Source: Maribacter luteus
Lineage (GTDB): Bacteria; Bacteroidota; Bacteroidia; Flavobacteriales; Flavobacteriaceae
DNA: 64,000 nucleotides
NCBI RefSeq assembly: GCF_009674825.1
Contig: NZ_WKJH01000022.1
Location: 980-64,979 of the forward strand
Direction of reading: 5' to 3'
Position numbers and translations under genes: made by a program. Positions 1 through 8,343 of the stretch are shown here, piece by piece. Every line of letters begins with the position of its first letter. Within the stretch, counting starts at the first letter, position 1. The notes beneath the pieces are model-generated. The model saw nothing but the letters and a program-made list of their open reading frames with translations, searched no databases and was not told the origin of the DNA.

Positions 1-1698
1 ATCGCCAACTTCTCCTTTGTCTCCTTTGTCACCGACTTCGCCTTTGTCTCCTTTATCTCCAGTTTCACCTTTGTCGCCAACTAAACCTTTATCTCCGGTT
101 TCTCCTTTATCACCAACTTCGCCTTTATCTCCAGTTTCACCTTTATCGCCAACTTCACCTTTATCGCCAACTTCACCTTTGTCACCAACGAGACCTTTAT
201 CTCCGGTTTCACCTTTGTCGCCGATTTCGCCTTTGTCACCGATTTCGCCTTTGTCTCCTTTATCTCCAGTTTCACCTTTGTCTCCGACTAAACCTTTATC
301 TCCAGTTTCACCTTTGTCACCAACTTCTCCTTTGTCTCCTTTATCTCCGACTAGACCTTTATCTCCGACTTCACCTTTATCGCCAACTTCACCTTTGTCA
401 CCAACGAGACCTTTATCTCCGGTTTCTCCTTTGTCGCCAACATCTCCTTTGTCTCCTTTGTCACCGACTAGACCTTTATCTCCGGTTTCACCTTTATCGC
501 CAACTTCACCTTTGTCACCAACAAGACCTTTATCTCCAGTTTCTCCTTTATCACCGACTTCTCCTTTATCTCCAGTTTCTCCTTTGTCACCAACATCTCC
601 TTTGTCTCCTTTGTCACCGACTAGACCTTTATCTCCGGTTTCACCTTTGTCACCGGTTTCTCCCTTATCTCCGACTTCTCCTTTGTCACCGGTTTCGCCT
701 TTATCACCAACATCTCCTTTGTCTCCTTTGTCACCAACTAAACCTTTATCTCCGGTTTCACCTTTGTCGCCGGTTTCTCCTTTATCACCAACTTCACCTT
801 TGTCTCCTTTATCTCCAGTTTCACCTTTGTCGCCAACTAAACCTTTATCTCCGGTTTCACCTTTGTCACCGACTTCTCCTTTGTCACCGGTTTCTCCTTT
901 GTCACCGGTTTCTCCCTTATCTCCAGCGAGTCCTTTGTCACCGGTTTCTCCTTTATCACCAACATCTCCTTTGTCTCCTTTGTCACCAACTAAACCTTTA
1001 TCTCCGGTTTCTCCCTTATCTCCGACTTCGCCTTTGTCTCCTTTGTCACCAACTAAACCTTTATCTCCAGTTTCACCTTTGTCGCCGGTTTCTCCCTTAT
1101 CTCCGACTTCACCTTTATCGCCAACTTCACCTTTGTCTCCTTTGTCTCCAGTTTCACCTTTGTCACCGACTTCGCCTTTGTCTCCTTTGTCACCAACTAA
1201 ACCTTTATCTCCAGTTTCACCTTTGTCGCCGGTTTCTCCTTTGTCACCGATTTCGCCTTTGTCGCCGGTTTCTCCCTTATCTCCGACTTCACCTTTATCG
1301 CCAACTTCACCTTTGTCTCCTTTGTCGCCAGTTTCACCTTTGTCACCGACTAGACCTTTATCTCCGGTTTCACCTTTGTCACCGACTTCTCCCTTATCTC
1401 CGACTTCTCCTTTATCTCCAGTTTCACCTTTGTCACCAACATCTCCTTTGTCTCCTTTGTCTCCGACTAGACCTTTATCTCCGTTTTCGCCTTTATCTCC
1501 AGTTTCTCCTTTGTCTCCTTTATCTCCAGTTTCACCTTTGTCACCGGTTTCTCCTTTATCTCCGACTTCTCCTTTATCTCCGGTTTCACCTTTGTCACCG
1601 ACTTCTCCTTTGTTACCGGTTTCACCTTTATCACCAACTTCACCTTTGTCACCAACAAGACCTTTATCTCCAGTTTCTCCTTTGTCGCCGACTAGACC
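1..1698 (-). repeat. Collagen-like triplet array (9-18 bp DNA periodicity)
   Basis: About 188 consecutive Gly-X-Y codon triplets, dominated by [12 protein letters not shown] and GDK-GEV pairs. At the DNA level this is a low-complexity tandem array in which the GDK nonamer recurs with only synonymous changes (gac/gat, ggt/gga/ggc). The array is open in several frames and creates long spurious antisense reading frames rich in Ser-Pro-Leu. Confidence 0.95.
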
Positions 1699-6700: not shown

Positions 6701-8343
6701 GTCACTGCATTATCAGCAAGTTCATCGGTATCAATTCCACCTAAACTAACTCCTAAGGTAAGTGGGTCGGCATTTGTCGCTCCACCTGAAAGTGTTAAAG
6801 TGCCGTCCGTGGGACCGGTTACTTCATTGCCAACAATGCCATCTACTTCTGCCGTTGCAGCAGGTAAATCGACCCAAGCAACGTTTCCTGTTCCATCGGT
6901 AGTTAGGTATTGTCCGTTGGTTGTAGAAGGTTCTATTTTTGCGGGAGTCACTGCTTCATTACTGATTTTACCCGTTGTGACAGCTCCATTAGCAAGCTCA
7001 TTGGTATCGATTCCTCCATTTGCTACATCAAGCGTAAGGGGATTTGCATTTGTTCCCAATCCTGTAACTGTAAGAGTTCCATCTGTTGGACCAGTTACTT
7101 CATTGCCGATAATACCATCAACTTCAGCCGCAGCAGCGGGCAAATCAACCCATTCAACAACTCCTGAAGCGTTAGTACTTAAATATCTTCCAATCGTTGG
7201 TGAAGGTTCAATTTTAATAGGGGTGACCGCTGCATCTGCAATTTTAATTTCGGTCACTGCACTATTTCTAATTTTACCCGTAGTAATCGCATTATTTAAA
7301 ATTTTAGCCGTCGTTATCGCATCATCTTCTATGGTTACCGCACCGGTATTGTCAATGGTAGCATCCCCACTCATGGCAACACTTGTTGCTACATTGGATG
7401 CGTTGCCCACATAGATCTCACCATTGTTCAATGTACTTACGGCCCCCGTGGCATTGTCCACATACGTTTTTACCGCATTTTGGGTAGGGAAAAGGTCTGC
7501 AGAATTCCCTAAGGCCACATCGTCCGATTTATTGGCTGCGTCTTCCTTTAAAAGTATATTGTCGGTATTGATCTGTATGTTGTCCGCATTCAATCCGATA
7601 TTAAGGGCGTTGCTTAAAATACTTGCCGTATTGGTATCAATATCTGAACCGTTGGTGCTAATATCCCCTGTATTCGTAGTAATGGCATCCAAAACGGGCT
7701 GTTCATCATAAAATGCCCCTCCGTCAACACCGATCATAAGGTCATTTCCCGTATCGCCACTAATGATATCCGCATCGGTGATAAAGCCCGGGGTGTTGGT
7801 AAAACTCTCCAAAGTAACTTGGCTGGTATCCAGGGCATCGATCCCCACGGCATTATCGATGATCTCTTCCCGGCCAACGGCATCGTTCCCCAATTTATCG
7901 TTTCCTATACTGTTGTTCTGTATGTCCACACCATTGATACCGCCATCAACGATCTGTTCGGTACGTATACTGTTTTGTGCTACCTCAATATGGTTGTTTT
8001 CGCCATCGGTGGTAATTACGATGGTACTTCGGGTATTTACGAAAGGTTCGGTGGTTAAATTGGGTATGCCGCCCACTTCCTCACAAATATTGATCCATTC
8101 GGTACCATTATAATAATGTACGCACTGTAGGTCGGTATTATAGACCACCGCCCCGGGTAAGGGGGTAATGGCATTCATCTCGGCCGTACTTACTCGGGTG
8201 ACCACCAATACACGGGAGCCACTTTCGAGCTCTAAGACCGATGATGGGTCAATGGTCTGGGGATTGTCCCCGATCTTGATCTGCCCTTTTACACCCGTGC
8301 CCAATAAAAGGCCTAAAACCAGAAAAAATAGTGTTCTTTTCAT
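3706..8343 (-). CDS. Giant repetitive fibre-like surface protein with tail-fibre-type C-terminus
   Basis: 1545 residues. Signal peptide 1-20 (ends VKGQ); head domain about 21-90 (IKIGDNPQTIDPSSVLELES, YNTDLQCVHYYNGTEWINIC), homologous to the head of the collagen-like protein at 1-2166. Then come many short repeats of the type AITTAKILNNAVT, three 69-residue repeats (about 537-743), six 75-residue repeats (about 822-1270), a region resembling phage tail-fibre body (DARLHVDGNLIVEGQIYT), and a C-terminal domain with SLKEVESFIKKFNHLPG followed by a coiled coil. The last part resembles the tail-fibre/intramolecular-chaperone domains common in Bacteroidota surface proteins. It is probably a trimeric surface fibre (inference). 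It precedes and overlaps the T9SS type-B gene. Confidence 0.8.
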   Translation of the reverse strand: MKRTLFFLVLGLLLGTGVKGQIKIGDNPQTIDPSSVLELESGSRVLVVTRVSTAEMNAITPLPGAVVYNTDLQCVHYYNGTEWINICEEVGGIPNLTTEPFVNTRSTIVITTDGENNHIEVAQNSIRTEQIVDGGINGVDIQNNSIGNDKLGNDAVGREEIIDNAVGIDALDTSQVTLESFTNTPGFITDADIISGDTGNDLMIGVDGGAFYDEQPVLDAITTNTGDISTNGSDIDTNTASILSNALNIGLNADNIQINTDNILLKEDAANKSDDVALGNSADLFPTQNAVKTYVDNATGAVSTLNNGEIYVGNASNVATSVAMSGDATIDNTGAVTIEDDAITTAKILNNAITTGKIRNSAVTEIKIADAAVTPIKIEPSPTIGRYLSTNASGVVEWVDLPAAAAEVDGIIGNEVTGPTDGTLTVTGLGTNANPLTLDVANGGIDTNELANGAVTTGKISNEAVTPAKIEPSTTNGQYLTTDGTGNVAWVDLPAATAEVDGIVGNEVTGPTDGTLTLSGGATNADPLTLGVSLGGIDTDELADNAVTTAKILPGAADQILRTNAAGNAVSWVDLPPSGTSDIFDATTISGTGVTGDAYTVADDAITTIKILNANVTDEKIAPGAADQILRTNAAGTAVEWVDFPPSGASAIFDATTISGTGVTGDAYTVADDAITTIKILDANVTDEKIAPGAADQILRTNAAGTAVEWVDFPPSGASAIFDATTISGTGVTGDAYTVADDAITSTKIALNTIIADDINTGAVTTDEILNGTILAEDINDDAVTSTKILDDNVTIEKIAASANDGQVLTTSGTDVVWANPTVMPVSADGSTITGDGSTTDLSVPTDGITTTQIADLTIATIDIADNNVTPAKIAEGANGEVLTTNAAGDVVWAAPTVLPVSSDGTTITGDGSTTDLSVPTDGITTTQIADLTIATIDIADNNVTPAKIAEGANGEVLTTNAAGDVVWAAPTVLPVSSDGTTITGDGSTTDLSVPTNGITTTQIADLTIATIDIADNNVTPTKIAEGANGEVLTTDAAGDVVWAAPTVLPVSSDGSTITGDGSTTDLSVPTDGISTTQIADLTIATIDIADNNVTPAKIAEGANGEVLTTDAAGDVVWAAPTVLPVSSDGSTITGDGSTTDLSVPTDGITTTQIADLTIATIDIADNNVTPAKIAEGANGEVLTTDAAGDVVWAAPTVLPVSSDGSTITGNGSTTDLSVPTGGITTAQILDGTILTEDIADDAVTTLKILDDNVTPDKIQQGTDGQVLTTNGTDVVWATPNSTNLSTTDLTQTSGEDRTYDLNGQNLQFLGSGNIGIGNFGSPGSPTNINDKLHVDGQIRAEDGFATRSGSAALPTYGFYTNSDNDIGMYRAGIDELGFSTNGIEALKIDEFRNVGIGPNFDVNTIDARLHVDGNLIVEGQIYTDNAYLPIPDYVFEKYFKGKSTINDNYQFKSLKEVESFIKKFNHLPGVVSAKQAKADGKWNLSKSSLNNLEKIEELFLHTIEQEKKIDQLQNENRALTKELETLKSDIDLIKQLLLTKEAND
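4531..5880 (-). repeat. Six tandem 225-bp repeats (75 residues each)
   Basis: The DNA around GATGATACGG recurs at 4736, 4961, 5186, 5411, 5636 and (diverged) 5861, exactly 225 bp apart. Each unit encodes PVSSDGSTITGDGSTTDLSV followed by ...TQIADLTIATIDIADNNVTPAKIAEGANGEVLTT... The inner copies are nearly identical in DNA; the two outer copies are more diverged. This is the pattern expected of recent unequal exchange. Confidence 0.92.
6113..6733 (-). repeat. Three tandem 207-bp repeats (69 residues each)
   Basis: The segment beginning GCCCCACTGG (or GTCCCACTAGG) recurs at 6191, 6398 and 6605, exactly 207 bp apart. Each unit encodes IFDATTISGTGVTGDAYTVA, then a DEKIAPGAADQILRTNAAG-type stretch. 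It is a second repeat family, distinct from the 75-residue one in the same protein. Confidence 0.9.

Follow-up and report, generated by a model that had tools for sequence, protein, structure and literature searches.

The opening part of a 64,000-nucleotide stretch of the Maribacter luteus genome (hereafter the window, which starts at base 980 of contig C20, NZ_WKJH01000022.1) carries three genes on the minus strand: a long fibre gene, a small gene with a type-B sorting signal of the type IX secretion system (T9SS), and a collagen-like gene, transcribed in that order. On balance, we favour the reading that this locus is a modular, split T9SS adhesin made of two-gene cassettes, in which a small carrier protein would export a long fibre in trans. 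Since in many flavobacteria a long fibre lacking a recognised T9SS signal adjoins a small gene that bears one, the small protein is suggested to bring the fibre to the surface or to hold it there.

Organization of the locus

The unit is a repeated two-gene cassette, present twice, in which a head-bearing fibre is followed by its own carrier of ~385 aa. The three open reading frames (ORFs), called here with a simple longest-ORF script, are present as the original prediction had described them, with the type-B gene between the collagen and fibre genes and overlapping the latter. Its linkage of all three was right as to overlap and order; the fibre and type-B genes are a tightly coupled pair, while the collagen gene is set off from the first type-B gene by 386 bp and is incomplete in the window. 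The features of the locus, with the T9SS C-terminal domain abbreviated as CTD, are as follows.

3706..8343, minus strand: fibre gene of cassette 1 (1545 aa), with a signal-like N-terminus, head, tail-fibre-like repeats and C-terminal coiled coil, and without a recognised T9SS CTD
8080..8283, minus strand: fibre head (aa 21-88) with two conserved Cys, phage-fibre-type and trimerisation-like
6110..6685, minus strand: 207-bp tandem units of the fibre shaft (2.8 copies, 92% matches)
4670..5902, minus strand: 225-bp tandem units of the fibre shaft (5.5 copies, 94% matches)
3709..4026, minus strand: C-terminal tip/coiled coil of the fibre (about aa 1440-1545), in the largest tip cluster (22/56 tips)
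2553..3713, minus strand: type-B carrier gene of cassette 1 (386 aa), overlapping the fibre gene by 8 bp
2868..3650, minus strand: carrier N-domain (~260 aa), beta-rich in the predicted model; the family used in the genome searches
2562..2837, minus strand: T9SS sorting domain (CHU_C, type-B CTD), from Pfam CHU_C, TIGR04131 below its cut-off, and a Foldseek match to a solved T9SS CTD
1..2166, minus strand: collagen-like gene of cassette 2, 5' part, running beyond base 1; its distal end probably lies on contig C2, followed by carrier 2
1906..2106, minus strand: head of the collagen-like protein (aa 21-87)
7..1698, minus strand: Gly-X-Y tract of 188 triplets, proline-free; 84/101 Lys in KGE or KGD motifs

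A shared head on unrelated shafts

The head shared by the two long proteins was borne out by sequence comparison: their N-termini are 56% identical over ~89 aa, signal peptide included, and the collagen head, searched against the assembly, had the fibre head as its one match at E ≤ 0.001 other than itself (E = 2.3e-29, 59%). The bodies that follow are unrelated, as had been claimed, with Gly-X-Y triplets in one and the 225-bp and 207-bp tandem units in the other. The former is a long tract of the kind that defines bacterial collagen-like proteins (Pfam Collagen, 1.2e-93), and 100 of its 188 triplets are GDK. Were shaft length to vary by recombination, near-identical tandem units like those of the fibre shaft would be expected. 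On the plus strand, opposite the collagen repeat (window 1-1762), long open frames (SPLSPTSP...) look like by-products of Gly-X-Y codons and not genes.

This head exemplifies a broader phage-fibre-type motif. Sequence matches of the head in PHROGs reach 2.3e-07, and both head and shaft match phage tail/structural families. The predicted head structure (pLDDT 72.1, from 7 sequences) matches PDB structures weakly (E 0.019 at best), led by CBA120 tailspikes, the major tropism determinant, phage hyaluronidases and the trimerisation domains of collagen XV/XVIII, and it has 14 matches with E ≤ 0.001 among predicted viral proteins (BFVD). Searched by sequence against the PDB, the carrier and head profiles gave a best E of 0.17 in one search and none up to E 1 in the other. 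The head most likely trimerises the chain, a view suggested by the coherence of the structural, PHROGs and BFVD matches, the PDB E-values being weak. A second, short family of head-like proteins was also seen between fibre and carrier in several cassettes (L085 13245-14108, L128 4612-5733, L131 10536-11456, L132 1270-2724, L229 1018-1893 and L266 11218-11880).

Sorting signals of carrier and fibre

The type-B sorting domain claimed for the gene between the two fibres holds, with a Pfam CHU_C match of 7.7e-22 (77.7 bits against a cut-off of 27) and an NCBIfam TIGR04131 match of 2.7e-07 (30.6 bits, under the cut-off of 35). Across relatives, 47/47 carriers match TIGR04131 at E ≤ 0.01, 12 of them also TIGR04183. 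The carrier N-terminus is hydrophobic by sequence. Its predicted structure (mean pLDDT 71.7, from 8 sequences) had no Foldseek match at E ≤ 0.001; among the 50 PDB matches listed, only 8glk_D, a T9SS substrate CTD in complex with SprA, has a probability of 1.00 (E 0.084, TM 0.67 on target), so that only the CTD part of the carrier gave a probable match and no fold match for the N-domain was among those 50. A scan with one generic CTD pattern recovered recognisable N-domain carriers in 6/80 loci (seven proteins), a figure that is no measure of abundance.

No such signal was recognised in the fibres. Among the last 180 aa of 56 head-bearing proteins, both window proteins included, 0/56 match an NCBIfam T9SS signal at E ≤ 0.1; the 25 NCBIfam families matched in all include no T9SS family, and there is none among the best 25 of 48 Pfam families. 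One of these tips (L097) is uninformative, being 167/180 X, and another (L108) stops 15 bases short of the contig end. Ten further head proteins from distant loci likewise had no T9SS match at E ≤ 0.01. The fibre and collagen proteins are thus without a recognised C-terminal T9SS signal of their own, and export by T9SS in trans may still occur. Linkage clustering of their terminal 160 aa, in which large clusters may be chained, gave groups of 22, 14, 7, 3 and 2 tips with eight singletons; the tips have no common C-terminal sequence (mean column identity 12%).

Head and carrier in same-family genomes

We surveyed 199 same-family genomes from 198 genera, one genome per species, with a head profile built from two sequences and a carrier N-domain profile built from 47 sequences with the CTD removed. 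Head matches at E ≤ 0.001 were found in 114/199 genomes with a two-humped score distribution, 43 genomes reaching at least 78 bits; carrier N-domain matches were found in 61/199, of which 42 reached at least 250 bits. The limits for a strong head (78 bits, or 80 with a rebuilt profile) and a strong carrier (250 bits) were chosen after the gap was seen in the score lists, and because the sequences in the carrier profile came from loci close to strong heads of the same genomes, its sensitivity favours such loci. At these limits, 40 genomes had both, three the head only (G037, G082, G006), two the carrier only (G103, G106) and 154 neither (Fisher p = 6e-36, kinship ignored).

To read gene order, 60 stretches were fetched, covering the listed places of at least 78 bits and one of 60 bits. 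The rebuilt profile detected 76 head ORFs at ≥ 80 bits, equal to 75 genes, as one gene read in two stretches (L072_11 = L128_11) is counted twice; 25 ORFs are uninformative (20 cut, five reaching the contig end before a carrier), leaving 51 that do not include the stretch-edge copy. In 32 of these 51 a carrier follows immediately (gap -71 to +137 bp), and in seven it comes after 1-3 genes, a script total of 39/51. Inspection raised this to 43/51 by adding the window's own collagen gene, L097_25 (with a short intervening antisense ORF and a tip consisting mostly of N) and two L089/L127 array heads, one reaching a carrier after another head and the other after four genes. Strong heads are therefore not mainly isolated proteins, the outcome on which the original prediction would have fallen; weak head relatives fare otherwise, as they often occur in genomes without a carrier. 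The reuse of one head on different shafts, also claimed earlier, extends through the family: the strong heads in the 43/199 genomes precede collagen, tail-fibre-like or short shafts, and complete fibres range from 190 to 3839 aa.

Heads and carriers also co-vary. For 39 head/carrier pairs the distance matrices correlate with r = 0.555, and when cassettes were swapped within the 10 genomes holding two or three, r fell to 0.305 +/- 0.070 and 0/5000 swaps reached the observed value. For those 10 genomes alone (21 pairs), r was 0.667 against 0.174 +/- 0.118, with 3/5000 reaching it, about as many as unchanged assignments would give. These sequence distances indicate that head and carrier travel together as pairs; they do not thereby prove contact.

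A second cassette across a contig break

The collagen gene is incomplete both in the window and in C20, a contig that has two 10-N gaps and then breaks off within the collagen repeat. This repeat reappears in the facing direction at the start of contig C2, which has a longer stretch of N as well. On that contig a tip of ~190 aa closes the collagen frame; it resembles BclA_C (9.6e-05, below the Pfam cut-off) and by sequence against the PDB gave E ≥ 0.1. Another type-B gene begins 1 bp after the collagen stop, its product 44% identical to the first carrier, and VanY and then M48 peptidase genes come next. Because the repeats face each other and relatives have the same order, we infer that C20 and C2 join. 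In a same-genus genome (L072 and L128) one contig carries a BamP-like pair, fibre, carrier, collagen, carrier and a further collagen cassette before VanY and M48, and in Maribacter sp. PR1 (L263) one contig carries the BamP-like pair, fibre, carrier, collagen, carrier, VanY and M48. Collagen lengths are unreliable because these repeats break assemblies: the PR1 collagen frame is itself interrupted, and two Arenibacter contigs (L267, L268) likewise break in the collagen gene. The second carrier rules out a single secreted partner common to both filaments. Of the original proposal, one head on different shafts stands and one shared partner does not, as each fibre has its own T9SS carrier.

Distant relatives

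Of 20 further stretches fetched, two (L228, L229) proved to be strong-tier, leaving 18 with weak-tier carriers. PorP and OmpA profiles were built from two loci in which Pfam confirmed the PorP_SprF and OmpA domains. A PorP-like gene lies directly downstream of the weak-tier carrier in 16/18 and an OmpA-like gene within two genes in 14/18; among three weak-tier loci named individually, two have both and L133 has neither. With a profile of the GIGT-type head, which aligns with the first head profile at a probability of 97.9, a head was found within four upstream genes in 12/21 weak carriers, those three included. In F. johnsoniae CI04 (L262) a GIGT-head collagen protein is followed by the carrier, PorP and an OmpA-like gene.

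N-domain matches were found in 52/395 genomes drawn across the phylum, family members included, and 13 stretches were fetched from genomes outside the order. Head proteins directly precede the N-domain protein in L237 and L244; in six loci (L232-L235, L238, L241) the N-domain lies inside long single chains, and three (L239, L242, L243) had no match with the N-domain profile. Nine C-termini from outside the order were tested, and seven match the type-A model TIGR04183, among them those of L237, L240 and L244 (L244 below the cut-off); both L236 N-domain proteins tested match no T9SS model. The head/N-domain pairing thus occurs with both CTD types, and the N-domain is also fused in one chain; such fused and split forms are what a split adhesin would predict. 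In L236 (G695:C1:408000-427900), four head proteins (251-356 aa) alternate with four N-domain proteins (612-923 aa, the last one cut).

The window genome has 11 PorP_SprF matches, none of them in the locus. No type-B gene lies near the one at C15:218394 within the 11.5 kb read. Type-B genes paired with PorP occur on C24 (C24:440162) and C1 (C1:12332), and their CTDs share 36-49% identity with those of the window carriers, which are themselves 48% identical to each other, making a borrowed shuttle possible. A 251-aa ORF at L272 3110-3865 (G000:C27) matches both the PorP and the OmpA/PorE profiles and is apparently the fused remains of a shuttle pair.

Proposed mechanism and its difficulties

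Passages in PMC12618676, PMC9143113 and PMC10202324 describe type-B CTDs as requiring a PorP/SprF shuttle, appearing uncleaved and anchoring to that shuttle; with a linked PorE-like gene anchoring appears static, while substrates lacking such a gene are able to travel along the gliding track. Read together with the gene order, this literature yields a simplest model in which the head binds the carrier and the carrier CTD both exports and anchors the complex. The first gene would encode a Sec-type signal peptide and the ~70-residue, probably trimerising head, with a shaft (collagen triple helix or tail-fibre repeats) and a tip (a coiled coil, a BclA-like domain or others) that are both exchangeable, and the second a carrier of ~385 residues composed of a beta-rich N-domain and the type-B signal. 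Both chains would enter the periplasm by Sec, where the head would bind the carrier N-domain; the CTD would then take the complex through SprA to a PorP/SprF-family barrel, which would keep the carrier on the outer membrane with the fibre, a putative adhesin, pointing outward.

Several observations weigh against this model. First, for 8/51 informative heads the stretch read contains no downstream carrier (L086, L094, L104, L111, L115, L116_9, L123, L129); L111 has one upstream, the L116_9 head comes after a complete cassette, and in the L104 genome a carrier is present further along the same contig. Second, the head motif is not specific to carriers: at E ≤ 0.001 it was found in 114 of the 199 genomes against 61 for the carrier, weak head relatives being common where a carrier is absent. 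Third, co-variation can arise from a cassette inherited as a block. Fourth, in weak-tier loci no head was found upstream in 9/21 (two without a head, and seven ambiguous because an upstream gene is truncated), and in L240 the order of head and N-domain is reversed. Fifth, among strong-tier carriers with two visible downstream genes, a PorP-like or OmpA-like gene comes next in 0/37 and their stretches contain no PorP, so the shuttle must be unlinked. Sixth, a preformed trimer of this length probably would not fit the periplasm, and export would therefore have to be progressive. Lastly, among the papers listed by searches of the open-licence literature there is none on a CTD-less fibre with a T9SS carrier and no T9SS piggyback precedent. 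On the fifth point, a porP/sprF gene next to a type-B substrate gene is usual but not universal, and orphan type-B substrates with an unlinked shuttle are known from passages in PMC12618676.

A broader form of the split-adhesin model can be offered only tentatively: T9SS may export giant trimeric fibres in trans, with the carrier binding a generic trimerising head so that any shaft could be exported, and with CTD type (A or B) and shuttle swapped in evolution while the head-carrier pairing was kept. The window fibres, having no linked PorE-like gene, may then ride the gliding track.

Flanking genes

Two overlapping genes diverge from the fibre gene.

8758..9510, plus strand: BamP-like flanking gene, divergent from the fibre gene
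9497..10276, plus strand: second divergent BamP-like flanking gene, overlapping the first

They score 163.5 and 115.8 bits against a model cut-off of 230 and keep their place in many relatives; we treat them as syntenic neighbours and do not claim them as part of the system. BamP sits in BamA, according to passages in PMC12611786. The octamer TATTTTTG occurs on the minus strand upstream of both cassettes (2203-2210 and 8529-8536, ~36 and ~185 bp before the starts); the window shows no enrichment of such sites. Occurrences of the Bacteroidota -7-like motif TANNTTTG in the window do not exceed those in shuffles (72 vs 75), so it gives no evidence of promoters.

Alternative explanations

The strongest alternative, which we nevertheless hold to be unlikely, is that the fibre exits by another route, such as outer-membrane assembly, and that the carrier is a T9SS-exported surface anchor and not a vehicle. 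The same genetics would result, type-B proteins are surface anchored (in passages of PMC9143113), and the BamP-like pair points at outer-membrane assembly, as synteny only. Such docking needs a second export route for giant proteins, however, and the BamP-like pair was not found (E ≤ 1e-15) in several cassette-bearing stretches, for example L097, L117 and L121.

Less probable still, and in our view improbable, is that fibre and carrier are independent substrates, the fibre having its own unrecognised T9SS signal and both being simply co-expressed adhesins. A third, rarer CTD class does exist (described in passages of PMC10202324), profiles can miss signals, and the tips recur in families. Yet five tip clusters and the singletons with no common C-terminal sequence, and the want of any T9SS family in the NCBIfam and best-ranked Pfam matches of the 56 C-termini, speak against a hidden signal, and the co-variation seen in the swap test is not predicted.

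Capture of the fibre gene from a phage tail, without any surrounding system, is very improbable: head and shaft do match phage tail/structural families and predicted phage fibre proteins, but the fibre lies in no phage or prophage tail module, its N-terminus, like others, is hydrophobic and signal-like, and prophage origin of the locus was rejected in view of chromosomal neighbours (BamP-like, VanY, M48) in many genera, an IMG/VR scan with two peptide patterns that confirmed no relative, and a search of 50,697 phage records giving only 3 partial matches at E ≤ 0.01.

Comparison with known systems

The carrier shares its type-B CTD with the F. johnsoniae Fjoh_3952-3951-3950 and P. gingivalis PG1035-PorP-PorE systems, and the weak-tier relatives (F. 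johnsoniae CI04 included), with head protein, type-B gene, PorP and OmpA/PorE-like gene in that order, also resemble such type-B/shuttle/PorE systems. In the passages that describe them the type-B protein is treated as the adhesin, whereas here its gene is preceded by that of a separate fibre, which lacks a recognised CTD; unlike them, the window lineage has no linked PorP or PorE-like gene. The primary report on the F. johnsoniae type-B operons, cited as Kulkarni 2019, may mention the upstream genes. SprB/SprF likewise combines a type-B CTD with a PorP-family partner, but SprB is one chain with its own CTD, unlike the split fibre and carrier. The window genome contains a region that resembles sprC-sprD-sprB-sprF, in which a 5727-aa frame with a type-B CTD is followed by PorP. 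A relation of the cassettes to SprC/SprD-like genes was rejected, as the head and carrier profiles match nothing in the two stretches of that region read.

Collagen shafts between phage-type capping domains are found in the trimeric EPcl proteins of E. coli prophages (passages in PMC3368898), a likeness of shafts by description. EPcl are phage side-tail-fibre proteins, whereas the window fibres begin with a signal-like N-terminus, lie in chromosomal synteny and come with a T9SS carrier. Collagen shafts are also present in streptococcal Scl and Bacillus BclA; the SclA/SclB models match the window repeat, and BclA_C is the family that the distal collagen tip resembles. Scl and BclA are attached through LPXTG or at the exosporium, as the model names also suggest. 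Unlike both, the collagen fibre here has a separate T9SS protein beside it.

Implications

If the split-adhesin model is true, T9SS can move cargo that itself bears no signal, in complex with a dedicated carrier, and the set of T9SS-exported proteins would be wider than CTD profiles find. Small type-B proteins without an obvious adhesin domain would gain a concrete role, and the system would offer a direct test of how an orphan substrate chooses its shuttle. It would also provide a modular means of displaying long, proline-free collagen or other fibres on bacteria.

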